Shown here one piece after another: positions 15,261 through 58,705 of a DNA stretch of 64,000 nucleotides. Within the stretch, counting starts at the first letter, position 1. Each line of letters opens with the position of its first letter. Source of the DNA: Cenarchaeum symbiosum A. GTDB lineage: Archaea > Thermoproteota > Nitrososphaeria > Nitrososphaerales > Nitrosopumilaceae. Below the pieces are notes generated by a model, which did not search any database, was not told where the DNA came from, and saw only the letters and a list, made by a program, of their open reading frames with translations. Made by a program: the position numbers and the translations under genes. The stretch is taken from assembly GCA_000200715.1 (NCBI GenBank), contig DP000238.1:1476009-1540008 (forward strand), in the 5' to 3' direction.

Positions 15261-15459
15261 ATGAACTGATCCCCCGCCTGCAAGAACGGCAGGCCAAGGC
15301 CCGGGGCACCTCCCGGCCCGGTATATGGGCAGGCCCCAACGGTCCAGACGCATTAGCGTAAGGCTAAAAACACAAGGGCCCGCCTCCGGGTATCATGTAT
15401 GCAGGGCCGGGGCAGGCGGGTACTGCCGCATATCGGCCGTATCCGGGCATCAGCCGCAT

Positions 15460-18400
15460 ATGCGCACGCCGGGGCCCGCCCGCAGGAACCCCATGATGGC
15501 GCCTGCTTCCGGGATCCGTATAATGGTGATCTTTGCACTGCTTGCAGTTGCGGCATCCGCCCTTGTTCCGGCCCATGCCCAGCAGCTAGTCGCGGCTACA
15601 CTTGATGACAACATACTGGAGATATTCTTTGACGGGCCTGTAAACGCATCCAATGTAAACAGCAGGCTGATTACATTTACCGACGGGATATCGGTAGCCA
15701 CGGGCACTGTCCTGAGGAATAACGATCTTGACAAGAGTCTCACCGGGAACAAGCTGCGCTATACGCTAAACGACGCCAGGTTGAACCTCATAACCGGGTA
15801 CGGGGATCCCAGATTGCGGGTTGACGCTAACGCGCTTGGGCCCGGCCTGCCGGATGTGGCATACGGGCTGCCGGGCCCTGACTATGCGTATCCGCACACT
15901 TTGGACCGGGCCTCGTTTGTGTCTACAGAGGGATCCCCGCAGGGGCTCGCGGTATCGCCTGACGGCAGCCTGATATTTGTAACCGGATCCCAGAGAGACG
16001 AGGTCCTGCGGTATGTTATGAGCCCGCCCTATGATGTGAACTCGGCGGTGCTGGACGGCTCGCACGATATAAGCTCCGAGGAGGGCGCTTCCCGCGGAAT
16101 TGCATTCTCTGATGACGGCATGACGATGTTTATTATCGGCGACAATGATATCGTATACCAGTATTCCCTGGGCACGCCGTTTGCATTTGATGGAACAGTA
16201 TCGTTTGAGGCCAGCTATGATGCCGGCAGCCAGGACAACCAGATGTCGGGCATTGATTTCTCATCAGGGGGCCGCAGGATGTACCTTGTGGGGGACGGCA
16301 GCAACAACGCATACCATTACAACCTTGACAGCCCGTACGATGTAACCGCAGGCGTCACACATGTCGGAACCTTCAATGTAGGGGGCGAAGAGGCGGGGCC
16401 CCGCGGCGTGGCAGTCTCGGCGGACGGCCGTGCAATGCTGGTGCTGGGGCAGTCAAGCGACGGAGTGCACAGGTACGACATGGACGAGCCGTACAATGTG
16501 ACCACTTCGTCGTACGCTGGCTCCCTGGATGTAAGTGATCAGGGAAGCAACCTCCGGGGACTTGCAGCCTCGGCAGACGGAAGGCGAATTTTTGTATCCA
16601 ACACCGATGGAGCAGGCTCCATCCACCGGTATGACCTTGGCTCGCCGTACGATGCGGCCATCGAGGGCGTGGGGGCGGGCCCCAACCTGGATGTGTCGGT
16701 CCAAGAGAGCAACCCCTCCGGAGTGGCGTTCTCCGCCGACGGCACGCGCATGTTCGTAACCGGGTCCGGCGCCCGGAATGCAGACATACACGAGTACTCC
16801 CTGGACGGCCCGTACGATGTGTCATCGGCTACATTTGTGCAAAGTGCGCCCGCCTTTGTGCTCAGAAACGGAAGCGAGGGTTTTGAATTACTGCCACAGC
16901 GCATAATGAGAGATACGGGCACTCTGATAACTGCAGATTCTGCCCAGGATGTGGACTTTTCAGCGAACGGCAGGAAGATGTATGTCGTCGGCATTCGAAG
17001 CGGGTTTCTATACCAGTATGCACTAGACTCCGCCTATGCGATAAACACGGCGCGGCTGGAGGAAGCATACAACGTATCCCAGCTCCACGGCGACAGCTTC
17101 ACGGTTCGCGGGGAGCGGTCCCCGACGAGCATAGAGTTCAACCCGGCCGGGACCGTAATGCTGGTCACCGGGCGCGACTCAAACGACGTACACGAGTATT
17201 TTCTGGACGAACCGTTCAACCTGGACGGGAGGACCGAGAATAATGGGAACCGCCGCATAAACAACGTGGCTGATGTCCCGACGGGCCTCGCATATTCGTC
17301 TGACGGGAACAGGCTCTTTGTTTCGACTGTCGCAGGGCTGGTCATCAGGTACGACCTTCCAAACCCCTACAGCCTGAGTGGTGCAAAATACGTGGACTCG
17401 CGGAATATACTGGATGACGACAGGAGCATGCAGGACGTGGCATTTACCGCCGACGGCAGGAAGATGTTCGCCGTCGGGAGGATAAGCGACCAGGTATTCA
17501 CGTACAATCTGACCGCCCCGTTTGATATAGCCGCATCCGGACAGGACCTGCGGCTGCGCTTTTCTGGCGACAACCTTGTCGCCGATGTCTCCTTTGGCGA
17601 CATGGGCAGGGAGCTCTTCGTGCTAGAGGCCACCAGTGCCACCGTGCTACGGTACAGCCTGGGAATCCCGTACGACATGGTCACGGCCGTGCCGCAGGAC
17701 AGCTCCACCGCACTGACCGATGCCTCGCTGCGCGCCCTGGAGTTCTCGCCCAATGGTACGTTGATGTTTACAGCCGGATGGGAACACCTACGTATAGATG
17801 CATACAACATGAGCACCCCGTTTGACGTATCCACGGTACAGCTTGCCGGGGACAGCTTTGACCCCGATGATGCGGCAAACAAGCCCCCTGACGACGTAAA
17901 CCGCCCCACCGCGCTGAGGTTCTCGTCAGACGGGACGATGTTATTCGTGCTGGACCAGACCGTCAGAAAGCTGTTCCAGTATGATCTTGAAAGCCCGTAC
18001 TCTATAGACGGTACGCCGCGGTTTGTAAGATCACTTGATGTGGTCAGTCAGCTGACCGCCCCACAGGGGTTTGCATTCTCTGCAGACGGCACATGGCTGC
18101 ATATAGTGGGCTCCAGTAACGACCGCATAGCCCGGTATGCATTGGGCACCGCGTACGACCTTTCAACGGCAAGCCATGTTGGATCGCAAAGCATAGCGGA
18201 TTTGGAAGATTCCCCATCCGGAATTGCATTCAACAACGACGGCACAAGGATGTTTGTTTCCGGCAGCAACAGTGAGCTTGCCGACAGCGAGGACAACGTA
18301 TACGCGTTTGCCCTGTCGCCTTCCGTCCCGATCACCCCTCCCCCCTCTTCGATCACGACCCGCCTGCTCTCGGCTGTCCTGGACGGCACGGTTCTCTCCA

Positions 18401-21400
18401 TAGAGTTTGACAATCCGGTGGATGCCACAAGCGTTGTGCCCGGCAGGATACACGTCCGGGACGGCCATGGAGCGCCAGTCGGTGGCGTCACACCGGGAAG
18501 CTTTTCAGTCTCAGGGATGACAGTCTCGTCAACACTGTCCTCTGATGATGCTGCCGAGATATCCCGATATGCCGACCCGGTGGTGCAGTTTGAGGGCTCC
18601 GCCCTGTCCGGCGCGTCCGGGGACTCGTTCCCTGTTTTTGACGCGGAGAGCCTGCACCCTATAATCAACAGGTTTGCAGTATCGGGCGACCAGCGAATCG
18701 GGGTTGCGGGCTCGTTCCGCGTGAACACTGAATCTAACAATCCCGAGGGGCTCGACTTTAACCCCGACGGGACCATCATGTTTGTGCTCGATACCAACGG
18801 GGAGAGGCTGCTGGCATACAACCTGTCCGTCCCGTACGAGGCGAGCACGGCCGTGCTTGATGGAACGGCAGACATAGATGTGTCCGCATTCATCCCCCGC
18901 GGGCTCCACGTCAGTCCAGACGGCACCCAGTTCTATACGGTGGGATACGACAACCTGGTCCGGCTGTTTGAGATGTCTATTCCGTTTGATATAACCAGTG
19001 CGGTAAACTCTAGCACAACGTTCAATGCAAGCCGGGCCAACACCGTCGGGCGGATCAACGGGTTGGAGCTCTCCCCGGATGGCACGCACCTGTTCACGGC
19101 AGACGAGTTTGGCGACAGGGTGCACCGGTTTGACATGTCGACTCCAAACGACATAAGCACCGCCGTATACCACTCTGATTTTAATCTCGGGCAGCGCGTG
19201 CCGCTGGCCGAGGACGTGACGTTCTCTCCTGACGGCCTGATCATGCTGTTAACCGATACTGCCAGTGATACTATAGTAAAGTACACCCTAGATGAGCCAT
19301 ACGGGATAGCCGGCGCCGTTTATGCGGACACCATATACATCGGCGACAGGGCCAGCACCTTGGGAGCCCTGTCGTTTACCCCCGACGGCCTCAGGATGAC
19401 GGTGTCAGATATACGGGGCGTTAGAATGATCCAGTACGACCTGCCGGGCCCGTACGAGCTGTCGTGGCCCGGGCAGCCCGTTACGGGGGGGCTGGTCGTG
19501 TCCCCGAGGGATAACCTTCCAGGGGGCGCCACGTTTGTGCCGGACGGGGAGACGCTGATATACGTAGGTGCCACGAATGACGAGCTGTACGTCTGCAGGC
19601 TGGGAATCCCGTATGATGTCAGCACGCTCTTCTGCGTGGATGAAGCGGAGATTCCCGGCTCGGTGAACCGTCCAACCGGCGTGGTCTTTGCGGATGACGG
19701 CCTTTCTGTGTTCATATCGAGCAAGGATGGCAGCGGCAGCAACGATCCCGACGGCGCGATATACCAGTTCGGGCTGGAACACGCGTTTGCCCAAGACGGG
19801 GATAGCCATGAGATTACTTTCACAACCGAGACAACGCTTGACGTATCGGGCACGGCCAACAATACCGAAGGCCTGGCGTTAAGCGAAGACGGCAATACGC
19901 TGTTTGTTCTGGGAAACGTCGGGGTCGCATCGTCGAATATCTCATACGGCATACAGACGTACAACCTTCCTACACCGTTTGAGCTGGCCGGCGCAGTGCA
20001 GGGGGAGAGCGTGGAACTGGGGCTGGTTGAGCCGACGGGCTTGGCATTTACAAGCGACGGGATGCGATTATACATTGTAGACAAGGGGACAGGGCTGCTC
20101 TGGTGGTACGACCTGCCGCTCCCCTACAGCATACTGGGGATCAGCGCCTCGGGATTCCTCGATGTGGGGTCGGTTGATACTGCGATGGAGGATGTCATAT
20201 TGCACAACAGGGATTCGGCCATATACCTGCTGGGCTCCGGCAGGGACGCAGTATACGGGTACGGCCTCGGCATAGACGGCCTTGCAAGCTATGCATTGAT
20301 CACCCCCGACCGGCCGGAGCTCGGGATAGAGTCCGCAGTGTACGACAGCGGAACGGGCGCCCTGAAGGTGGTATTTACGGACGATATAGAGGGAGGGTCG
20401 CTGGACCCCGCGGGCCTCCGCATGATAAACGGGACGGGCGAGGAGGTGCCGCTATCACGCGCGGACGGGCTCGTTCTCGCCGGCAGCACGGCCAGCTTTG
20501 AGCTGGGAACAGAGAGGAACTTTACCGGGCCGAGCCTGGCATTTGACACGCTTGCCGTGCATGGGACGGACGGGGGGGTATTCCCGTCCCAGTTTGCATT
20601 CCCGGAGGAGCCGCTGGAGTATGCGGGCGAGTTTGTCCCCCCCGGCGGCGGTGCGGCCTTTACGGGGATGGCGTTATCAGCGGACGGGACGAAGATGTTC
20701 TTATCCCAGGATGACGCGGACTTTGATAGCATAATCCAGTACCTGCTGACTGATTCCTTTGACACCTCGACTGCCTCTAATCTTACCCTGCGCCGCGTGG
20801 GCGCGTCGGCGACGGGGATAGAACAGGACGAGACGGGCGGCCCCTCCGGCGTGGCATTCTCGCCCGGCGGGACAGAGATGCTCGTCTCGAGCCACGAGAC
20901 CGGGACGGTGGCCCGGTACCAGCTGGCCTCGCCGTTTGAGATAGCAGGGGCGGCATATCTCTCAAACTTTGATACCAGCGGGCAGGATGCAAGCCCCACA
21001 GGCCTGGCACTATCTGCTGACGGGGGCACCCTGTTTGTCTCCGGGGATGATACTGATTCAATATACAGCTATGAGCTATCCCTGCTTGATGTCGAGGGCG
21101 CCAGCCACACGGGCACGCTGGACGTCTCTGCGAATACCACGGAGCCCGCCGGTGTCTCGCTCTCCGGGGACGGCCAGGAGCTGTTCCTTGCGGCGGGCGA
21201 GACCGGGGAGATACACCGGTATGCGCTGGCCCTGCCGTATTCGCTGGACGGGGCCGAGTATGACGGCAGCTTTGGCACCGTCGAGGGCGATCCACAGGGC
21301 ATGACATTTGCAGCAGACGGCCTGGACCTGTATGTTGCGGGGCCCCGTGGCATACACCGGTACCTTCTGGATACGGCCGCGCTGGAAATAACCGAGACCA

Positions 21401-23277
21401 ACCGGACCATTATCAGACCCCTTGACAAGCCCGTGGTCAACGATACAAGCGCGTACGAGTATACGGACGTGCAAGAGATGTACAATTTAACAGCAGAGGA
21501 CATACCCGGGCTGGAAGACGACCATGACTTTGACGTGCCCCCGCCAATGCTATATGCAAACGACACGCTAGCATTTACGGACAGGGCGATGCGCGCGGGG
21601 GATCCAATCCCGGTCATTGGTTTTGACGGGCCCTCCGTCAATGATACGGGGGCGACAAACCATACGATGGCGTTGATTGCTTTGAATATAACCGGCAGTG
21701 ACATGCCGGATGTAGGAGACAACGGCACGTCCAAAGTCGGCATGGTTGCAACATCCCCGACGTACAATGAAACACTCATTGATAGCCCTCTAGTCGGCGA
21801 TATGCTGGCTCCCGATATGGACGTCATGCAGCCGATGATGCTGGATATCAACGGAACAGACGGGCCCGCAGTAAATGATGCGGGCGTGCCTGTCCGTGTC
21901 GGTGCACAGGTACAGCACGCGGCCGAGGCAAACGAGACGTCCTCGGTGGCAGATGCCGCCATTGCAAACCACACTGTGATGCCGAATGTTTTGGTGATCA
22001 ACCGGACCGATGCGCCCTCTGTATCCGACGCAGATGTGCGGGTCCATGACGGAGGGCCAACCGTGCTTACGCCATCAGATACGCTCTCTGTATCCGACGC
22101 AGGTGTGCGGGTCCGTGACGGCGGGCCAATCGTGCTTATGCCATCCGAGACACCCACTGTATCCGACGCAGGTGCTAGGGTCCACAACAGGGGGCCAATC
22201 ATAGTTACGGCATCAGATACGCCCGACGTAGCAGACGCAGGTGCTCGGGTACACGACGGCGGGCCAATCGTACTTATGCCGTCCGATACGCCCACTGTAT
22301 CCGACGCAGGTGCTCGGGTACACGACGGCGGGCCAATCGTGCTTATGCCGTCCGATACGCCCACTGTATCCGACGCAGGTGAACAGGTACACGACATTAG
22401 GCCAATCACGGTTACGCAACCAGATGTACCGGTTGCCAGGGCCCGCGGGGGCGGAGGCGGCGGCGGGGGCGGCGGCGGTGGAGGAGGAGTGCTCAGCCCA
22501 TCATCATTTGGGCCGTCAGGGCCCAATGTGAACTTTGAGTTCTCTGCAGGAAATGAAGATCCCATGCAGGGCCGCTACCTCCTGCACCTTGCCCCCGGCA
22601 CGCCGCTGACGATATACCCCCGGCTGGAATCGACGGAGACGCCCAGCGTCTTTGACATGGAGATAGTGTTCAGCGGCCCCGACGGCAGGATGGCAGACGT
22701 ATACTACAACAGGATAGGGGCCCTGCTGGGCAGGGCGTGCGACGGCTCCACGTCGGTATCCGAGTTTGCATACGTGTGCGACATATCGTCGATCATGTCC
22801 GGCGCGGACGCGGCAGTATCCATAAACGGCGGGGCCCTCGATAGCATCACCGTGCCCCTGCAAGGAGGGTTCTCTGGAACCATGAGCATGATGATACGCG
22901 ACAGCCATGGGCTGATCCTCGCCTCGCATAATTCCGACAGATACACCGTCAATATAGCAGGCTTGGAGGAGCCGGCGGCTGCAGGCCCGGTACCCGGGAT
23001 GGAGCAGCCGCAGGTATCTGAGCCTGAAGTGGTAGAGCCCGTGGAGGTCCCGCAGGTATCTGAGCCTGAAGTGGTAGAGCCCGTGGAGGCGGAGCCTCCG
23101 CAGGTCGCCGAGCCTGAAGTGGTAGAGCCCGTGGAGGCCCCGCAGGTTGTGGAGCCCGAGGTGGTAGAATCTGAAGTGGCGGAGCCCGTGGAGGCGGAGG
23201 GGCCCGTCGCTGATACAGAAGGGGAAAGTTTCGTTGACATGATAATAGGGTTCTTCAGGTCGATCTTCGGATCCTGA
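15460..23277 (+). CDS. giant exported propeller-repeat surface protein 1
   Basis: About 2605 residues. Signal peptide [20 protein letters not shown], probably cut before QQ. Three blocks follow, each opening with an immunoglobulin-like strand motif ([19 protein letters not shown] near residue 40; [19 protein letters not shown] near 968; a third near 1620) and continuing with dozens of roughly 45-50-residue units of the form FSxDGxxMFVxGxxxDxVxxYxLxxPYDxS, typical of beta-propeller blades. Residues 2187-2325 are 23-residue repeats. A run of Gly near 2330 leads to a beta domain with two Cys (GRACDG, AYVCDI), a PEVVEPVE-rich spacer and a terminal helix [16 protein letters not shown]. Starts at 15460 or 15493 are both possible. 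Likely cell-surface, perhaps adhesive. Paralogue of the next gene. Confidence 0.85.
22021..22434 (+). repeat. 69-bp tandem repeats in giant protein 1
   Basis: Six units of 69 bp (23 codons) begin at about 22021, 22090, 22159, 22228, 22297 and 22366, each carrying GTATCCGACGCAGG or a close variant. Encoded unit resembles [23 protein letters not shown]. The later units are almost identical, so expansion is recent. Confidence 0.85.
22480..22530 (+). repeat. 51-bp block identical in both giant genes
   Basis: The stretch from the end of the Gly run through the codons for [14 protein letters not shown] is the same, base for base by eye, at 30602-30652. It marks a region kept similar by recent duplication or gene conversion. 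Confidence 0.75.
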
Positions 23278-23638
23278 CCCCCCAATACCCTGCATGAGTA
23301 CACCCGGAGATCATGCGGGGGAGAGCGTGCCGGGGGCCGGGCCTTGTGCCGGGGCATTCCTGTGAAGACTGCAGCCCGGAGGCTGCCGCCAGGGCCCTTT
23401 TTCGGGCCCCGGCCATTCCTGTGCAAGGGTGCGTGCGCATCTGCCCCGGCGGGGGATCATGCCGGCCCCGGGGCATATTATTTAATACGGCCAACCTGTT
23501 GGGGCCCGTATGCAATATACGCCCCATATTATACAGTCCTCCGCCGGAACTTTGTGGAAAGGGAGTGCGCCGTCACGGCCGTCCCCCGCACGCGGCCTCG
23601 CGTGGCGGGTAGAGCCGCAGGGATAGGGCGTGCATCCG
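23278..23638. other. 361-bp gap between the giant genes
   Basis: No gene seen. It contains an inverted repeat GGGCCC-TTTTTC-GGGCCC near 23393-23410, which could end transcription of the first giant gene, and two TATA-like stretches, TATTATTTAATA near 23476 and CATATTATACAG near 23524. The nearer one is about 110 bp before the next start, so the second giant gene may have a leader. Confidence 0.4.
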
Positions 23639-26600
23639 ATGAATGCCGCGCCCGCGGCGGTCCTGCTTGCGGCCCTGGTCGCCGTGCTCGCCGCGCCTGC
23701 CGCGCATGCCGAGCTCATCTCCGCCACGCTAGACGGCAACGGCGTGCTCGAGCTGACCTTTGATCGCGTCATAACCATAAGCGGAATAAACCCCGCGCTG
23801 ATCCAAATAGGGGACGGACGTTACTTCTCGGCCGCCGGCCTGTCCCCGGGGGAGCTCGAGACCACTGCGGATTCCGATACCATACGGTTCGCCCTGAATG
23901 GCAGCAGGGAAAAGGTGTCGGGGTACACAGACCCCCACGTGATCATAGCCGACGGGGCGCTTGGCCCCGGCGACCCCTCCACCGCCTTTGATCTCCCCCG
24001 GTCGCTGTACCCGCACCATCTCAACACATCCTCCATCACGCTCCCGGGAGGGGAGGGATCCCCGCAGGGGCTTGCATTCTCGCCCGACGGCACGCTCATG
24101 TTCATGGTTGGAAGCCAGAGGGATGTGGTCTTCCGGTACGAGCTGGACCCTCCCTACAACATAACCTCGGCGGTGCAGGCCGGCTCGTATGATGTAGGCT
24201 CCGAGGAGAATGATCCGCGCGGGCTTGCCTTTTCTGCCGACGGCTCCAGGATGCTGGTTACCGGAAGCTCGGACTTTGTACACCAGTATTCCTTGAGCAC
24301 GCCGTTTTCATTCGATGGAACAGTGTCGCTGGATGCAAGCTATAATGCCATGAGCCAGGACAACCAGGTCTCGGGCATTGATTTTTCATTGGGAGGCCTC
24401 AGGATGTACCTGGTTGGGGACAGCGGCAACGGCGTATACCAGTACAACCTTGACAGCCCGTATGATATCACCGGGAATGTCTCGTACATCGGAGACTTTG
24501 ATGTCGGAATGGGCGGGGCCGGCAGTGAGGGGGGGCCCCGCGGGGTGGCAGTCTCGGCGGACGGCTATACAATGCTGGTGCTCGGACAGGGAAACGACAA
24601 CGTGTACAGGTACGACATGGCCGAGCCGTACAATGTAACCACCTCGTCGTATTTGGGATTCCTGGACATAAGAAGCCAGGGAAACAACCTCCGGGGATTT
24701 GCGGCATCGACAGACGGGAGGCTCATCTTTGTCGCCAACACAGACGGCAACGGCGCCGTATACAGGTACGACCTCGGGGTGCCGTATGACGTGGTGAGGG
24801 ACCGGCCCGATGCGAGGACAGGGCCCGATCTCGGCATAATGGCCGACGATACGGAGCTGACGGGCGCCGCCTTCTCCGACGACGGGCGGCGGATCTTTGT
24901 CACCGGGAGAGAAAACAGGATGATATACTGGTACGACATGGCGACGCCCTACAACCTGGCCGGCGCCGCGCTTGCCGGGAGCGCCCCCGCAAACACGAAC
25001 TCGCCCCAGGGGCTGGCGTTCTCAAACGACGGCCGCGTAATGTTCATCGTTGATGATAGCGGCAACGATATAGACCAGTACACGCTGGGCGGCCCGAACA
25101 ATCCAAGCACCGTCTCGTATGTCGCCAGCTTTGACGTCAGCGGATGGGACGGTCAGCCCTCGGGCATAACTTTCAGCAGCGGCGGCGACGAGATGTTCAT
25201 AACTGGGCGCCTGTCCAATTCCATACACAGGTTCCTGCTAGAAGAGAGGTTCGATCTTGCCTCCCAGGTTACATACCAGGGCAGCCTCGGAGTCCTGGAG
25301 TATGAAAGGCGCCCGACGGGGCTCGATTTCTCATCCGACGGGCACAGGCTGTTTGTGGGCGGGTTCGTATCGGATACCGTGCACAGGTTTGACATGGACG
25401 TTCCGTACGACATAGCAAACGCGGCGTACGCCGGGGGGCTGTACGTGGGCGGAGAGGACGGTGAGTTCCATGACGTCAGGTTCTCGCCTGACGGCAGGAG
25501 GATGTTTTTGGTCGGGGATGAGAACAAGTTTGTATACACGTACAACCTTACGTCCCCGTTCGATATTACATCGTCTGCGCGCAGCCCGTCCTATCATGTG
25601 GGAGGCCAGGCGTCGGTCCCAAACGACCTGGCGCTGTCCCCGGACGGCAGGTTCATGATGGTGCTCAACAACCACGGCAGCGACAGCCGAGTATACCGGT
25701 ACGAACTGCCCTCGCCATACGACCCGGCCTCCGCCTCATACATCAGTGACGAGAGGTCTTCTGCAATAGTGCACAGCCAGGACAACACGCCCCACGGGCT
25801 GGCTTTCTCCTCAAACGGCTCGCTCATGTTTGTCGCGGGGCAGCAAAACGATATGATCCACGCCTACTCGATGAATCCGCCCTATCGTGTGGACATGGCC
25901 GTCTCCACGGGCGTATCTGCCGACATGGGCACGAGTGCAAGCATGGACAACCCTTCCGCGGTAGAGTTCTCGGCAGACGGCCTGCACATGTACGTCGCAG
26001 ACCAGGTGCTTAGCACGGTATACCATTTCTTGCTCGATGATCCGTATTCCCTGCAAGAGACCCTCACGGTTGCCGATATGATCGACGTCAGCGCCCGGGA
26101 GGACACCCCCAGCGGGCTCGCCGTATCCGACGACGGCAGGCGGCTCTTTGTATCCGGGCAGGGCAGCGACAGCATAAACAGGTACGACATGGGCACGGCG
26201 CACGACCTGTCCACTGCAGTGTACGCAGATTCTATCTATGTCGGGGGGCTGGACACCATCCCCAACGGGCTGGCCTTTGCAGGCAACGGAAGCAGGCTGT
26301 ACTTTATGGGCGGGTTGACGGATTCTGCCTACCTTCTTGACCTGTCCATTTTGCAGAGGGTGGAAGAGGCGCCGCCTGGCCCCCGGCTGCTCTCCGCAGT
26401 CCTTGACGGGAGGGATCTTACGCTGGAGTTTGACGGGGAGGTGGACTCTGTTAGCGCCGAGAGGATCCGCATAGGGGACGGGGCCCGCCACGACGTGGGG
26501 GGCGTGACCCTGTCCGGCGTGGCAGTTGCAGGGTCAAGCACGGTCACATCCACGCTGTCAGAGGATGAGGCCGCCGAGGTGCTCGGGTACACGGACCCGA

Positions 26601-29600
26601 CGCTGCACTTTGAAGTCCCGGTCCTGTCCGGCGCATCAGGGGGGACGTTTCCCGCACCGGCGGACGCCTCCGGCTTGGCGCTATCGGCGCAGAGGCTGCG
26701 GGGGTCGCCCGACGCGGCAGGGTTCGGGGAATCCGGCAGGTTCGATTTCGGGACGAGATTTGCCGCCAACGCCTTTGGGGCCTACTTTGCCGCCGGCGGG
26801 CTGCAGATGTTCGTCAACGAGGCCACCAGCGGCGTCGTGGAGGCCTACAATCTTACCGTTCCATATGATGTGACGTCGGCCGTCTTCAACGCATCAATGA
26901 ATACGGACGCGGTGCCCACCCAGTTCGATGCCGGCATGGACTTCAACCCCGACGGCAGCAGCTTCTATCTGGCGGACTTTACCAATGACGTAGTGAGGCA
27001 GTACGACATGTCTGCCCCGTTTGACATAACTACTGCGGGGCACTCGGACACGCTAAACGTGTCCGACCGCGAAAGCGGCCTCACCGCAGTGGTGATGTCG
27101 TCCGACGGCGGGTACATGTTCATATCGGGGATCGTAAACGAGATGGTGCACCGCTACAACCTGACCACCCCCTACGAGATAACAGGTGCGCAGTACGTGG
27201 ATACCTACGACGGCGGCAACTTCATCACCTTCCCCAGTGATATCGCCTTCTCCCCAGACGGCCTGCTCATGTTCGTGTCGATTCTGGATTCCGGCACGGT
27301 GCGCAAGTTCGTGCTCTCCGAGCCGTACGAGATAACCACTGCAGAGCCAGTCGACTTGCTGTTTGTCGGCAGCGGGGCGGAGCCGCGCGACATATCTTTC
27401 ACGCCGGACGGCCGCAGGATGTTTGTTACTGATATAGACAGGGACGACATGGTGCAGTTCGACCTGCCGGGGCCCTACGATTTCACGTGGCCCGGGCAGC
27501 CGGACGCGCTGGGGACCCGGACTTATGTAAACGAGAACAATCCGAGGGGCGCGGCCCTCTCCCCCGACGGCTCCAGGCTACTCTTTGTAGGGATCAGCCT
27601 GGACAAGCTGATGACTTGCAACATAAGGGAGCCGTTTGACATAACGACCGGGCTCTGTTATGACGTCAACTTTGCGATAAACGACAACGCGCCGACGGGC
27701 GTGGCGCTCTCGCCGGACGGGGTGTTTGCATTCGTTACCGGCAGAAACAGCAAGCAGTCCGGCCTCGACGGCGCCGTGTACCAGTACACCATGCCCAGCC
27801 CGTTCGGGGCGGATCTGATAGGGGCGCTGGACAGGAGGATGACGCTGGACACGTCTGGCGGGGCGGGCCTGCCCGAGGACCTGGCCTTCTCCGGTGACGG
27901 CAGGATGATGTTTTTGGTCGGGGACGCAGAAGGCCCCGGGGTATACAGGTACGACCTGCCCACCGCCTACCTGCTGAGGGGCGCCGAGTACTCTGGGGTG
28001 CATTATCTGGTGGGTGAGCAGGAGCAGGAGCCCACCGGGATGGACTTTGCGCCCGACGGGCTCCGGATGTTCATCTCCGGCCGCCAGAGCGGGCTCGTCC
28101 ACTGGTATGATCTGCACCAGCCATACGACATATCCCGCCCCGTCTACGGGGGTTTCTTTGACGGGGGCTCGGCAGATGCGGTGCTGGAGGATGTGATCAT
28201 CTCCAGCACCGGGGGCGACCTGTACACGGTGGGAAATGGCGGCGACGCAGTCTACCGGTACAACCTGAACATCCGGCCGCTGAGCGTCCTCCAGATGGGG
28301 AACGGGTCGGGCGAGATAAGGGCCGCCTCTGCAGCATTCAACTCGAGCACCGGCGATCTCACTATAGAGTTCACTGGAATAGTGGACGCCTCCTCGGTGA
28401 ACCCCTCCGGAATCCACGTGCGCAGCGGGGTCGGGGCAGAGGGCGGAACAACCCTCACCCGCGCGGACTATGATGCCGATACCAACTCCGACGGAATGAT
28501 AAACGGGAGTGACGACTCAGATGCGCTGGCCTTTGGCCTCTCGGCAGAATCCATTGCGGGCATCAGGGCGCTCGACGATCACAGGATACACTTTGACGAG
28601 TTTGCGCTGTACGGAGCAGACGGGACGGAATTCCCCCCCAGGTTCACCCTGCCGGGCGGGTATGATGATACTCGCGACGTCAGCGCGCAGGATGCGGGGC
28701 CCTCCGGTGTTGCATTCACACCCGACGGAACAGTCATGTTTGTGCCCGGGAATGGCAGCGGCTCTGTGCACCAGTATTCCCTGGGAGTCGCCTTCAATGC
28801 GAGCTCCGGGAGCTTTGAGCGCTCTGCTGATGTCACGGGGGAGATGGGGAGCACCGAGGGCGTCGCCTTTGCGGCCAGCGGCCTGCGCATGTTTGTTGCC
28901 GGAAGGACCGCCGATGGCTCCGGCGGGCAGGTGCAGCAGTACGGCACGGACTCGCCGTTTAACGTGAGCGGGATCACGGCCGAGGGATCCCTTGCGGTGG
29001 ACGAAGACGGCTCGCCCACGGGAGTCGCATTTTCGCCGGACGGGCTGCGCCTGTTTGTTTCCGGAAACGAGAGCAGTTCTGTGCACAGGTACGACCTGTC
29101 CTCTCCGTACGACCTGCGCGGGGCGGTGGCCCCCGCGGGGTCCTTTTCTGCTGCAGGACAGACGAACGGGACGGCCGGCGTCACCTTTGCCTCCGGGGGC
29201 CTGCGCATGTTCATTGCCGGGGACGGGGCCGTGCACAGGTACGGCCTGACCGCCCCGTACAACATAGGCCAGCCGGAGCATCACAGCTCGTCCGATACGG
29301 CCCCGGAGGACGGCCCTACAGGGGTGGCGTTCTCTGCCAGCGGGCAGAGGTACTTTGTGTCCGGGCCGGGCGGTGTCCACCAGTACGCCCTGAACGAGCT
29401 TGACCTGGCCGTGCACATAGGGGCGGGCCGCGTCGCGGCCGACGGGCTCCCGCTGTCGGATGGCGCCGTGCTCTCAGTAGCCCGGGTTCTGACAGGTTCT
29501 GACACTATAGCGCCGGTGGATCTCCCCGCAGTGCGGACGGGAGCAGCTGCGCCAATGCCCATGGATATCCCCGTCGTCCGGGATTCTGTGCGCATCGGGG

Positions 29601-31369
29601 CATCAGTATCCGCGGTGGACGAGATAATGCAGGCCAGCTTGGACTCGGCTGACGTCATGGCAATGCTGACATTGGATCTGCATGACAGCCTGAGGCCGGT
29701 CGAATCACTCAACAGCACCGGGTCCGCCGTGCGGCACATGCTTGACGGCCTCGACGCGCCGGTTCCGGTAACGATGGGCGCGGCAAATCTAATTGATGCG
29801 CCGAATATGACCAAGCTCAATGCCACTGATATACTGGTGCTGAATAGCACGGGCGACAGGAATTTCACAAAGGCTATGCAGGTGCACATGCTGAATGGCT
29901 CCGATGCGCCGGTGCCTGCAATCATGGGCGCGGCAAATCTCACTGCGGGGCCGCAGATGCTCGCGGCGGATGGAGCCGATGCGCCGGTATTGACGAGCAG
30001 CGGCGCGGCGGATCATACCCGCGTGCCGCAGATCCACACGGTCAACGTCTCCGATGATCCCGTGCCGGCAACCATGGGCAATACAAACGTCACAGGGCGG
30101 CAGCAGCACATGGCGCCTGGACTTGATAAGCCCCTGTTGACGAGCAGCGGTGCGGCGGATCACACCCGCGTGCCGCAGATCCACACGGTCAACGTCTCCG
30201 ATGATCCCGTGCCGGCAACCATGGGCAATACAAACGTCACAGGGCGGCAGCAGCACATGGCGCCTGGAGTTGATACGCCCCTGTTGACGAGCAGCGGCGC
30301 GGCAGATCATACCCGCGTGCCGCAGATCCACACGGTCAACGTCTCCGATGCGCCGGTTCCTGAAACCATGGGCACGGCAAATATCGCAGGGATGCCGCGG
30401 GTGCACATGATAGGCGGTCTTGATAAGCTGATACTGGGATCCGCGGGCACCACAAATGCCACCATGGTACACGTGGTAAACGGCCAGAGCACGCCTGCCG
30501 CCAGCGATCTTGCCGGGCGCATTCACTCTGTGGAGAGGACGGAGACCCCGACGGCCCCGGTGGCCAGGCCCCGCGGTGGCGGTGGCGGCGGGGGCGGCGG
30601 CGGAGGAGGAGTGCTCAGCCCATCATCATTTGGGCCGTCAGGGCCCAATGTGGGCTTTGAGTTCTCTGCAGGAAGCGGCGATCCGCTGCGAGGCCATGCT
30701 CTGCGCCTATCCCCCGGCACGCCGCTGACGATATACCCCCAACTAACATCGGCAGAGTCTCCGAGCATCTTTGACATGGAGATACTGCTCACCGGTCCCG
30801 ACGGCAAGGTGGCAGATGTGTACTACAGCAGGATAGGAGCCCTGTTTGGCAGAACGTGCGACGGCCTTCCGTCAGTATCCGAGTTCGTATACACGTGTGA
30901 CGAAACGTCAATCATGTCCGGGACGGGGGCAGCCGCATCCGTGAACGGCGGATCCCTCGAGAGCATCACCATGCCCCTGCAAGGCGAGTTCTCTGGAACC
31001 ATGAGCATAATGATGCGCGACAGCCAGGGGCTGATCCTTGCCACTCACAACACTGACAGGTACGCCGTCAGCATAGCCGATTTGATAGAACCGGCAGCCG
31101 CAGAGCCGGAGGCGGCAGAGTCCCTGCCGGAGGCAGAGACCGTGGATGATTCCGTCATGGAGGCAGAGCCCGCGCTGGACGCAGAGCCCGCGGAGGATTC
31201 CGTAATGGAGGCAGAGCCCCCGCGGGACGCAGAGCCCGCGGAGGATCCCGCAGAGTCGGCAGAGGCTGAAGATGCAGAGATGTCGGATGCAGAAGCCGTC
31301 GCGGATTCCGAATCAGATAGTTTCATTGACACGATAATAGGATTCTTTAGATCGCTATTCGGATTCTGA
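23639..31369 (+). CDS. giant exported propeller-repeat surface protein 2
   Basis: 2576 residues, paralogous along its whole length to giant protein 1. Signal peptide AAVLLAALVAVLAAPAAHA, cut before ELIS. Ig-like openers occur near residues 1, 913 ([19 protein letters not shown]) and 1559, each followed by long arrays of FSxDGxxMFVxGxxxxxVxxYxLxxPYD blades. Near residue 1610 lies DADTNSDGMINGSDDSD, an EF-hand-like calcium loop. Residues 2117-2270 contain 49-residue repeats, then a Gly run near 2315, the Cys-containing beta domain (GRTCDG, VYTCDE), an AEPAED-rich acidic spacer and the terminal helix SFIDTIIGFFRSLFGF. ATG 23639 chosen over a GTG three codons upstream. Likely exposed at the surface. 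Confidence 0.85.
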   Translation: MNAAPAAVLLAALVAVLAAPAAHAELISATLDGNGVLELTFDRVITISGINPALIQIGDGRYFSAAGLSPGELETTADSDTIRFALNGSREKVSGYTDPHVIIADGALGPGDPSTAFDLPRSLYPHHLNTSSITLPGGEGSPQGLAFSPDGTLMFMVGSQRDVVFRYELDPPYNITSAVQAGSYDVGSEENDPRGLAFSADGSRMLVTGSSDFVHQYSLSTPFSFDGTVSLDASYNAMSQDNQVSGIDFSLGGLRMYLVGDSGNGVYQYNLDSPYDITGNVSYIGDFDVGMGGAGSEGGPRGVAVSADGYTMLVLGQGNDNVYRYDMAEPYNVTTSSYLGFLDIRSQGNNLRGFAASTDGRLIFVANTDGNGAVYRYDLGVPYDVVRDRPDARTGPDLGIMADDTELTGAAFSDDGRRIFVTGRENRMIYWYDMATPYNLAGAALAGSAPANTNSPQGLAFSNDGRVMFIVDDSGNDIDQYTLGGPNNPSTVSYVASFDVSGWDGQPSGITFSSGGDEMFITGRLSNSIHRFLLEERFDLASQVTYQGSLGVLEYERRPTGLDFSSDGHRLFVGGFVSDTVHRFDMDVPYDIANAAYAGGLYVGGEDGEFHDVRFSPDGRRMFLVGDENKFVYTYNLTSPFDITSSARSPSYHVGGQASVPNDLALSPDGRFMMVLNNHGSDSRVYRYELPSPYDPASASYISDERSSAIVHSQDNTPHGLAFSSNGSLMFVAGQQNDMIHAYSMNPPYRVDMAVSTGVSADMGTSASMDNPSAVEFSADGLHMYVADQVLSTVYHFLLDDPYSLQETLTVADMIDVSAREDTPSGLAVSDDGRRLFVSGQGSDSINRYDMGTAHDLSTAVYADSIYVGGLDTIPNGLAFAGNGSRLYFMGGLTDSAYLLDLSILQRVEEAPPGPRLLSAVLDGRDLTLEFDGEVDSVSAERIRIGDGARHDVGGVTLSGVAVAGSSTVTSTLSEDEAAEVLGYTDPTLHFEVPVLSGASGGTFPAPADASGLALSAQRLRGSPDAAGFGESGRFDFGTRFAANAFGAYFAAGGLQMFVNEATSGVVEAYNLTVPYDVTSAVFNASMNTDAVPTQFDAGMDFNPDGSSFYLADFTNDVVRQYDMSAPFDITTAGHSDTLNVSDRESGLTAVVMSSDGGYMFISGIVNEMVHRYNLTTPYEITGAQYVDTYDGGNFITFPSDIAFSPDGLLMFVSILDSGTVRKFVLSEPYEITTAEPVDLLFVGSGAEPRDISFTPDGRRMFVTDIDRDDMVQFDLPGPYDFTWPGQPDALGTRTYVNENNPRGAALSPDGSRLLFVGISLDKLMTCNIREPFDITTGLCYDVNFAINDNAPTGVALSPDGVFAFVTGRNSKQSGLDGAVYQYTMPSPFGADLIGALDRRMTLDTSGGAGLPEDLAFSGDGRMMFLVGDAEGPGVYRYDLPTAYLLRGAEYSGVHYLVGEQEQEPTGMDFAPDGLRMFISGRQSGLVHWYDLHQPYDISRPVYGGFFDGGSADAVLEDVIISSTGGDLYTVGNGGDAVYRYNLNIRPLSVLQMGNGSGEIRAASAAFNSSTGDLTIEFTGIVDASSVNPSGIHVRSGVGAEGGTTLTRADYDADTNSDGMINGSDDSDALAFGLSAESIAGIRALDDHRIHFDEFALYGADGTEFPPRFTLPGGYDDTRDVSAQDAGPSGVAFTPDGTVMFVPGNGSGSVHQYSLGVAFNASSGSFERSADVTGEMGSTEGVAFAASGLRMFVAGRTADGSGGQVQQYGTDSPFNVSGITAEGSLAVDEDGSPTGVAFSPDGLRLFVSGNESSSVHRYDLSSPYDLRGAVAPAGSFSAAGQTNGTAGVTFASGGLRMFIAGDGAVHRYGLTAPYNIGQPEHHSSSDTAPEDGPTGVAFSASGQRYFVSGPGGVHQYALNELDLAVHIGAGRVAADGLPLSDGAVLSVARVLTGSDTIAPVDLPAVRTGAAAPMPMDIPVVRDSVRIGASVSAVDEIMQASLDSADVMAMLTLDLHDSLRPVESLNSTGSAVRHMLDGLDAPVPVTMGAANLIDAPNMTKLNATDILVLNSTGDRNFTKAMQVHMLNGSDAPVPAIMGAANLTAGPQMLAADGADAPVLTSSGAADHTRVPQIHTVNVSDDPVPATMGNTNVTGRQQHMAPGLDKPLLTSSGAADHTRVPQIHTVNVSDDPVPATMGNTNVTGRQQHMAPGVDTPLLTSSGAADHTRVPQIHTVNVSDAPVPETMGTANIAGMPRVHMIGGLDKLILGSAGTTNATMVHVVNGQSTPAASDLAGRIHSVERTETPTAPVARPRGGGGGGGGGGGGVLSPSSFGPSGPNVGFEFSAGSGDPLRGHALRLSPGTPLTIYPQLTSAESPSIFDMEILLTGPDGKVADVYYSRIGALFGRTCDGLPSVSEFVYTCDETSIMSGTGAAASVNGGSLESITMPLQGEFSGTMSIMMRDSQGLILATHNTDRYAVSIADLIEPAAAEPEAAESLPEAETVDDSVMEAEPALDAEPAEDSVMEAEPPRDAEPAEDPAESAEAEDAEMSDAEAVADSESDSFIDTIIGFFRSLFGF
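29990..30430 (+). repeat. 147-bp tandem repeats in giant protein 2
   Basis: Units of 147 bp (49 codons) start with TTGACGAGCAGCGG at 29990, 30137 and 30284. The first two units differ at only a few positions; the third is diverged at its end. Encoded repeat includes LTSSGAADHTRVPQIHTVNV and ATMGNTNVTGRQQHMAPG. Confidence 0.85.
30602..30652 (+). repeat. 51-bp block identical to 22480-22530
   Basis: Second copy of the block shared with giant gene 1, directly after the Gly run. Confidence 0.75.
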
Positions 31370-56785: not shown

Positions 56786-58705
56786 TCAGTTAAGCCCGAA
56801 CAGCGACCTGAAAAAGTCGCCTATCGCCTCAAAGAAGCCCTTTTCAGAATCCCCTGCGGGTTCTGCCGCCGGCTCTGAATCCTGCCTGTCTTCCGGGGCA
56901 TCCCTGTCCTGTTGAGGCTCTGCACGGGGCTCGTCCGCGGGCACTGCCGCCGGTTCCTCCGGGGCCTCCCTGTCCTGGATGGGTTCTGGCTCGTCGCGCG
57001 GCACAGGCTCCGTGCGGGGCTCTTCTACATCCGGACCCGTACCGGGGGCAGCCGTACCGGGCACTGCCGCCCCGCCGGCATTCAGGGCAAACCTGTCCCT
57101 GTCATGCGTGGCAAGCGTCAGCCCCTGGTTGTCGCGGAGCATGATGCTTACTGACCCCGCAAACTCGTCCTCGAGGGGTATGGAGACGCTCTCAAGCGAG
57201 CCTCCCACGACCACGGGCGTTGCCGCCCCCGATATTATCGACGATTCATCGCAGGTACGCATCATCCCGGACTCTGTTGCTTCGCCGACGCACTCGAGGC
57301 CAAAGAAGGCGCCCAGCCTGTTATAGTATATGCTGGCGCTCTCGCCGCCCGCCCCTGTCAGGAATATTTCCATGTCAAATATGGTAAGGAGGCCCGCAGG
57401 TGTGAGCAGGGGCTGTACGACCAGTATGTTTCCGGGTGCAATGCGTATGGAGGAGCCGCTTAGCACGCCCTCGCCCTCCGAGCTAAAGTCGAATCTTACG
57501 TCATATCCCAAGCTCGCGCCGCCGACGATGGAGCCGCCGCCCCCTCCTCCTCCGCCGCCACCGCCGCGAGGCTGTGGCGTCAAAATAGGTCCGGGACCAT
57601 TCTGGGGAGCCGGGGGCATGGGGCGCAGTTCCTCCACGTCTTCCGAAAATGCCGGCTTATCCATTGGCTCTATCAGTATCGGTATCCCCTGGATTCTCTC
57701 CATCCAGAAATGCCCGTCTTCCCCCATGATTACAACCCTGCATCCCGGCGAGCACGTCCGGCTGCCCGTATCGGATATTCCAGGCATGTCGAGGCCGCCT
57801 GCCTTGGCAGCCGAGCTGGCGGATGTCATCATGTCGTCGCTGACCACGGGGGCGTCGGTGGGTGTTGGCGTGAAGGTTGCCGGCGGGCGTTCCAACCCCG
57901 GGACACCGTCCACAATCTGTACACTTTCAGAGACCGTTATTTCGTGTATAATTCCAGCCGGACTGTCCAACTTCGTAATACTGTCCACGATTGGTATAGG
58001 TTCAGAGGATGCAACCCTGTGTATCCTCCCCGTCAGGCCATCTGGCCTCTCCCCGGCATCATCTACAACCAGTACAGGCTCATCGAATGCAACCCTGTGT
58101 ATCCTCCCCGTCAGGCCATCTGGCCTCTCCCCGGCATCATCTGCAACCGGTACGGGCTCATCGAATGCAATCTCGTGCCCCGTCCCAGTCAGCCCTGCCG
58201 GCCCCAACCTCCTGGCATCATCTGCAACCGGTACGGGCTCATCGAATGCAATCTCGTGCCCCGTCCCAGTCAGCCCTGCCGGTCTCTCCGTTGCACTGTC
58301 CACTATCGGTACAGACTCATCGAATGCAATCCCGAGCCCCATCCCCGTCAGACCGTTTATCCCCCTCGTGCCGTCATCTACAACCGGTACAGACTCATCG
58401 AATGCAATCTCGTGCCCCATTCCAGTCAACCCTGCCGGCCTCCTCGTGCCGTCATCTACAATCGATATGGGTTCAGAGAACGTGATATCGTGCATCGTTC
58501 CATTCAGTCCTGCCGGCCCCCCCTCCCTGGCGCGGTCTGCAAACGTTGCACCTTCAGAGAATTCAATCTCATGCATCACCGGTGATGTCTGGGCGTGGGC
58601 GGACATCAGGGTAAATGTAACCGCCACGAAGAGCGCCGCAAACAGCGCGGCTCCGTGCACGACACTTGTACGATTCGTGGTTGTTTTACACGGTGTCCCG
58701 TCCAT
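56786..58705 (-). CDS. exported repeat protein sharing the C-terminal module of the giant proteins
   Basis: A 639-residue exported protein. Signal peptide ALFAALFVAVTFTLMSAHAQ. Residues 40-275 are nine or so 26-residue units such as AGLTGTGHEIAFDEPVPVAD. A middle region has two Cys (SRTCSPGCRVV). A run of 11 Gly near residue 388 leads to a beta domain like that of the giant proteins (IYYNRLGAFFGLECVG, TCDESSIISG, SVSIMLRDNQGLTLATHDRD), then a Pro/Glu/Arg-rich spacer and the terminal helix GFFEAIGDFFRSLFGLN. The matching ends suggest a shared surface location or anchoring. It lacks propeller repeats. Confidence 0.82.
   Translation of the reverse strand: MDGTPCKTTTNRTSVVHGAALFAALFVAVTFTLMSAHAQTSPVMHEIEFSEGATFADRAREGGPAGLNGTMHDITFSEPISIVDDGTRRPAGLTGMGHEIAFDESVPVVDDGTRGINGLTGMGLGIAFDESVPIVDSATERPAGLTGTGHEIAFDEPVPVADDARRLGPAGLTGTGHEIAFDEPVPVADDAGERPDGLTGRIHRVAFDEPVLVVDDAGERPDGLTGRIHRVASSEPIPIVDSITKLDSPAGIIHEITVSESVQIVDGVPGLERPPATFTPTPTDAPVVSDDMMTSASSAAKAGGLDMPGISDTGSRTCSPGCRVVIMGEDGHFWMERIQGIPILIEPMDKPAFSEDVEELRPMPPAPQNGPGPILTPQPRGGGGGGGGGGGSIVGGASLGYDVRFDFSSEGEGVLSGSSIRIAPGNILVVQPLLTPAGLLTIFDMEIFLTGAGGESASIYYNRLGAFFGLECVGEATESGMMRTCDESSIISGAATPVVVGGSLESVSIPLEDEFAGSVSIMLRDNQGLTLATHDRDRFALNAGGAAVPGTAAPGTGPDVEEPRTEPVPRDEPEPIQDREAPEEPAAVPADEPRAEPQQDRDAPEDRQDSEPAAEPAGDSEKGFFEAIGDFFRSLFGLN
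58000..58560 (-). repeat. 78-bp tandem repeats in the 639-residue protein gene
   Basis: Units of 78 bp (26 codons): GTATCCTCCCCGTCAGGCC recurs at 58021 and 58099, and the rest of the region repeats the CATCGAATGCAA core with variation. The encoded unit is PxGLTGxxHEIAFDEPVPVxD. Confidence 0.8.

Follow-up and report, generated by a model that had tools for sequence, protein, structure and literature searches.

Surface proteins that carry beta-propellers are already known from archaea. The YVTN/PKD surface-layer proteins of Methanosarcina mazei (1l0q) are exported and combine tandem blades with Ig/PKD-like domains; their propeller is seven-bladed. Five-bladed propellers, analogous to the units described below, occur in tachylectin-2, which is a GlcNAc lectin, and in the phi11 receptor-binding protein. 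The phi11 propeller contains a cavity of a size to fit GlcNAc (PMC4901313). In comparative work on Thaumarchaeota from sponges (PMC6697440, PMC7848895), other surface domains are treated, and the second study mentions NHL and WD40-like repeats just briefly. Cenarchaeum symbiosum A, a sponge symbiont of the Nitrososphaerota, has a single-contig genome of 2,045,086 bases; the stretch from base 1476009 to base 1540008 (64,000 nucleotides) is referred to here as the window. An earlier note on the window had described two giant exported propeller proteins encoded back to back.

The two genes, here called A and B, are as large as had been claimed (~2600 residues each), and both are open throughout (Table 1). 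Each begins with a signal-peptide-like hydrophobic segment, found by eye and with a regular expression, which ends with AHA before Q in gene A and AHA before E in gene B, in agreement with the signal peptides of the earlier note. The start assigned to gene A, 15460, is indeed an ATG, but an internal one (M46 of the frame); the true start is probably near 15493-15496, with the mature protein running from about 15580. A blade HMM trained on the blades of the Cenarchaeum symbiosum A genome itself placed blades about 51 residues apart in three blocks per gene, behind Ig-like openers, as the note had it. The blocks are separated by ~170 to 210 residues, counted from the start of the last blade to the start of the next. 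The stalks of A and B do carry different tandem repeats, as had been noticed.

Table 1. Features of genes A and B and of other members of the family (window positions; C1, genome coordinates)
Feature	Position	Strand	Basis or remark
Gene A, giant exported propeller protein	15325..23277	+	Open ORF, 2650 aa counted from first ATG
Gene A Ig-like domain 1, opener of block 1	15580..15900	+	Sequence; strands modelled in gene B equivalent
Gene A block 1, 15 blades (3 x 5)	15928..18324	+	Blade HMM
Gene A block 2, 10 blades (2 x 5)	18736..20271	+	Blade HMM: 9 plus one weak (tenth)
Gene A block 3, 5 blades	20659..21375	+	Blade HMM
Gene A stalk	21376..22440	+	23-residue tandem repeats (69 bp) at 22007-22395
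Gene A C-terminal anchor module (putative)	22446..23274	+	Poly-Gly, two-Cys beta-sandwich (predicted), acidic P/E linker, amphipathic tail at 23227-23274
Gene B, giant exported propeller protein	23630..31369	+	Open ORF, 2579 aa, GTG start, mature from about 23711
Gene B block 1, 15 blades	24053..26347	+	Blade HMM; AlphaFold2 model of Ig + 15 blades
Gene B block 2, 10 blades	26768..28270	+	Blade HMM
Gene B block 3, 5 blades	28691..29395	+	Blade HMM; AlphaFold2 model
Gene B stalk	29396..30520	+	49-residue tandem repeats (147 bp) at 29990-30374
Gene B C-terminal anchor module (putative), ending SFIDTIIGFFRSLFGF	30560..31366	+	Module matches
Third family member in window, 639 aa, no propeller	56786..58705	-	Signal peptide, stalk repeats, same C-terminal anchor
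Split pair 1	C1:676301-683608/683563-685434		Overlapping family frames
Split pair 2	C1:764062-768948/768747-804797		Overlapping family frames; >13,000 residues if joined
Split pair 3	C1:859578-875345/875183-877651		Overlapping family frames
Split pair 4	C1:533070-536612/523798-533127		Overlapping family frames

The propeller assignment made in the earlier note was borne out by profiles, AlphaFold2, and Foldseek. Pfam propeller families matched by the two frames include SGL (8.8e-28) and Lactonase (6.8e-22) in A, Lactonase (2.7e-31) and SGL (2e-25) in B, and also WD40; the archaeal surface-layer YVTN protein 1l0q (7.7e-15) is among the solved sequence relatives found by profile matching. The repeat of ~51 aa with strands A to D falls within the four-stranded repeats of 40 to 60 residues that define the beta-propeller superfamily. 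In the AlphaFold2 model of the Ig-like domain and 15 blades of gene B (mean pLDDT, 78.9; pTM, 0.49, with 0.40 for the second of two models), strands A to D are predicted in most blades, with a clear fourth strand in blades 1-4, 6-9, 12, and 14. After blade 5 no outer fourth strand is predicted, and after blade 10 it shrinks to three residues; these two borders also hold the array's two longest runs of low confidence (~367-372 and 626-638). Since outer strands are also weak or irregular at blades 11 and 13, the model supports, but does not prove, segmentation of the propeller array as 5+5+5. The five-blade unit of gene B was modeled with block-mean pLDDT values of about 78 to 95 (model residues 150-380); in that model the stalk is disordered, and the anchor is predicted at moderate confidence as beta strands and a final helix.

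Foldseek searches of the PDB returned solved propellers at E values of 3.6e-11 and 5.2e-26; the best targets are seven-bladed and superpose with large rmsd, so this comparison leaves the ring size unsettled. The model of gene B block 3 superposes on that of an uncultured marine virus protein at 1.8 Å over 253 columns. The fourth strand is missing from the last blade of each block, as would be expected if each ring were closed by the strand preceding its first blade. Closed five-blade rings would agree with the sequence counts, the strand tables, and the superposition of models.

When blades were counted with the HMM per uninterrupted block over the stretches of the genome that hold family members, 112 of 123 blocks contained an exact multiple of five (26 blocks of 5, 60 of 10, 24 of 15, and one each of 20 and 25). 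Most exceptions can be traced to blades that were missed or frames that are split: between blocks of 1 and 8 and of 4 and 5 blades there is a gap the size of one missed blade, and those of 3 and 7 are one block severed by a split frame. A naive binomial probability for these counts is about 1e-64, but the blocks are paralogues and not independent, so that independent homologues weigh more than this figure. As five-blade counts recur in the archaeal and viral homologues described below, blade number is quantised in this family, with five as its unit in archaea and viruses alike. Rings of six to eight blades, as in the seven-bladed YVTN/WD40 type, do not fit multiples of five or isolated homologues with five blades. 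Similarity at a lag of five blades within blocks was only slight, which argues against a recent origin of the five-blade units by tandem copying; likewise, the identity between blades of 10-blade blocks is only about 30 to 37%, so the arrays are not fresh tandem copies. Spacing is no marker of propeller borders, since in 10- and 15-blade blocks overall it was no wider between blades 5 and 6 or 10 and 11. The 15-blade blocks taken together, and likewise the single-propeller homologues, proved too divergent in alignment for pattern scanning. A 1627-aa frame at C1:494319-499202, with at least six NHL-like blades, lies outside the family, and its blade count is not in fives.

The family to which A and B belong is spread over the genome and is far larger than the pair seen in the earlier note. 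A tblastn search gave 333 matches in the genome. Thirty-one frames with at least five blades together hold 1180 blades in 303 kb, and seven further frames have the anchor only and lack blades; these 38 open frames amount to 331.9 kb and so take up 16.2% of the genome. Their lengths range from 596 to 12,016 aa, the second longest being 10,048 aa. Four overlapping pairs of frames (Table 1) resemble genes split by frameshift, owing to assembly error or pseudogene formation, and we therefore count about 34 genes; no homopolymer tract at the four overlaps is long enough to suggest phase variation. In the third member within the window, 26-residue repeats (GLTGTGHEIAFDEPVPVADDA) lie between the signal peptide and the anchor.

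The C-terminal module had been overlooked in the earlier note and is conserved across the family. Over their last ~300 residues, A and B are 62% identical, and this stretch has 33 matches in the genome. An alignment of 29 modules contains a PR-poly-Gly motif, an invariant Cys, a Cys-Asp pair, invariant Glu and Gly positions, an acidic Pro/Glu-rich linker, and the terminal consensus G-x-x-D-x-I-x-x-F-F-R-S-L-F-G; the region after poly-Gly is predicted to be a two-cysteine beta-sandwich. A profile of the tail only matched 34 places in the genome, nearly all at the extreme C-termini of family frames, and two 10-blade proteins (596 and 608 aa) carry the tail without the sandwich. The tail of ~16 residues is amphipathic, with 28 of 28 tails scoring above shuffles (p<0.05). 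The tail alignment contains neither a PEFG/PGF motif nor a membrane-spanning segment, and the search for NCBIfam sorting tails gave no match up to an E value of 0.1. Because the tail has too few residues to cross a membrane and resembles no such sorting tail, we infer that the module is a membrane-surface or envelope anchor. A signal peptide combined with a dedicated C-terminal module is consistent with proteins that are exported and anchored at the surface. Apart from marginal poly-Gly matches, the module was not found in 249 other genomes of the same taxonomic family, one congener included. Two partial copies lie in the frame C1:405841-408018, and a 108-aa remnant at C1:564447-564716 comprises linker and tail only.

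The blades themselves are more widely distributed. A first scan of genome contigs found no match, which is weak evidence, since only exact patterns were looked for. A profile search of 400 genomes of the class gave strong matches in 17 others, none with a blade expansion of comparable size; 8 of 11 retrieved archaeal loci have exactly five blades, in single propellers within proteins mostly of 300 to 700 aa. The earlier note would have counted against its reading close homologues in free-living relatives with a known housekeeping role; half of this holds, in that relatives do have single-propeller homologues, which are not known to serve any housekeeping function. In a relative, Cenarchaeum sp. 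SB0675_bin_21, a lone five-blade unit sits within a different protein. The propeller/anchor family is missing from the congener genome (3.17 Mb) and is therefore no general requirement of sponge life. The congener has giant proteins of its own, built of different, NHL-like blades and Ig-like domains with another common C-terminus, and so makes use of giant propeller proteins in parallel. These giants are 7648, 7402, and 6541 aa long, with the C-terminus PGGTPPGGSVDVDFRINL...SQTVTFVANC; the G+C content of the congener is 70-77% in the stretches read.

Scanning viral contigs with the HMM trained on the archaeal genome added 13 matches, homologous in blade sequence, with blade counts of 5; 5,5; 5,5,5; and 10. 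The phage homologues are annotated as hypothetical proteins and adjoin tail-assembly chaperones and tail fibres, and PHROGs labels of their neighbours are tail fiber, tail fiber assembly, and endolysin. The protein of Roseobacter phage CRP-2 has the layout 5,5,5, and Lentibacter phage ICBM2, with protein AYP28110.1, is another marine-phage case of a propeller gene beside tail genes. In the uncultured phage LR756508.1, a 484-kb megaphage, 14 unannotated places match the five-blade domain.

The earlier note had read the pair as a recent diversification, a view that the comparisons contradict: the propellers of A and B are only about 39 to 54% identical, less than their anchors, the two are members of a family of about 34 genes, and a recent copy of A, 87% identical, lies elsewhere (C1:676361-682408). 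The anchor of this copy is only 43% like that of A, compared with the much closer anchors of A and B. Divergence between A and its copy is mosaic, with dS from 0.02 to 0.39 along the propellers, a spread that marks recombination or gene conversion. The overall dN/dS is about 0.44, and positive selection was not seen between the two. The repertoire may grow as five-blade propellers are gained or lost as wholes and as copies recombine with one another.

We regard A and B as members of a lineage-specific expanded family of exported strings of five-bladed propellers, presumably held at the envelope and probably acting as multivalent adhesin- or lectin-like arrays. Each protein would be exported, with its propellers grouped 3+2+1 behind Ig-like domains and borne on a variable stalk, and the common C-terminal module, whose last ~16 residues may form an amphipathic helix, would keep it at the cell envelope. 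Outside the cell, the strings could then offer a large number of weak binding sites, with the sponge matrix, other cells, particles, or mucus as candidate targets. Binding of glycans or of the sponge is proposed by analogy, the models being domains of phage tails and the phi11 receptor-binding protein; occurrence in marine phage tail regions is the sole functional hint for the five-blade domain. Neither the phi11 protein nor tachylectin-2 was among the listed PDB sequence matches, and no motif of a known glycan-binding site was identified in the propellers. We entertain more tentatively the idea that an unnamed five-bladed domain of marine phage tails and ammonia-oxidising archaea (AOA) was captured by the sponge-symbiont lineage and multiplied to ~1200 blades, as a combinatorial surface repertoire with an anchor of its own, making a phage-type receptor-binding module its main host interface.

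Alternatively, the proteins could be components of an S-layer-like coat or extracellular matrix with a mainly mechanical or shielding role and no specific ligands, as proposed for Methanosarcina YVTN/PKD proteins. The huge repetitive architecture, the common anchor, the envelope-suited acidic linkers, and the kinship with the surface-layer protein 1l0q all favor such a coat. However, an S-layer usually consists of one or two very abundant proteins, whereas here there are about 34 diverse members, of 596 to 12,016 aa, with a module absent from the congener and other genomes of the taxonomic family, and we consider a coat unlikely. It is still harder to credit that the members serve as decoys, presenting a changing surface to phage, sponge immune cells, or competitors while recombining copies create variants. 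The mosaic divergence of A and its copy, the different anchors that these two bear, and the four split pairs would suit such a surface, but the dN/dS value reveals no excess of amino acid changes, and the overlaps bear no sign of phase variation. A role of the propellers as SMP-30/lactonase-like enzymes, hydrolases or lyases with extracellular sugars as substrates, is highly improbable, for although SGL and Lactonase are the top Pfam names, they match repeats piecewise (in A, SGL as one stretch of 82 residues and Lactonase as three), full-length NCBIfam equivalogs score far under their cut-offs, and about 1180 tandem blades suit repeated binding more than catalysis.

The family is a testable candidate for the attachment of an AOA to its sponge, and its unit of about 250 residues suits expression and screening. 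One-sixth of a 2-Mb archaeal genome is devoted to a single family whose giant exported proteins obey a strict five-blade rule, and an archaeal surface family is thereby tied to a domain of marine phage tail regions. The five-blade unit common with phages, this genomic scale, and the anchor were not described in the literature searched; the genome paper (Hallam et al. 2006, PMC1643844) lay outside that search, and a prior mention as surface proteins is possible. Compared with proteins of the 1l0q type, the family has units of five, a different C-terminal module, and far larger arrays. The marine phage proteins (Roseobacter CRP-2/CRP-13, Lentibacter ICBM2, and viral contigs) have the same blade family and unit of five but belong to tail modules, with one to four propellers each and no signal peptide, stalk, or archaeal anchor. 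The exported single-propeller proteins of free-living AOA have the same blades, usually exactly five, but are mostly small, with other partner domains and no anchor module. Finally, PEFG-CTERM and PGF-CTERM tails are likewise common to many exported proteins, but the tail of A and B falls outside that sorting class in both motif and membrane span; as an amphipathic ~16-mer, it is a new candidate C-terminal anchoring signal.
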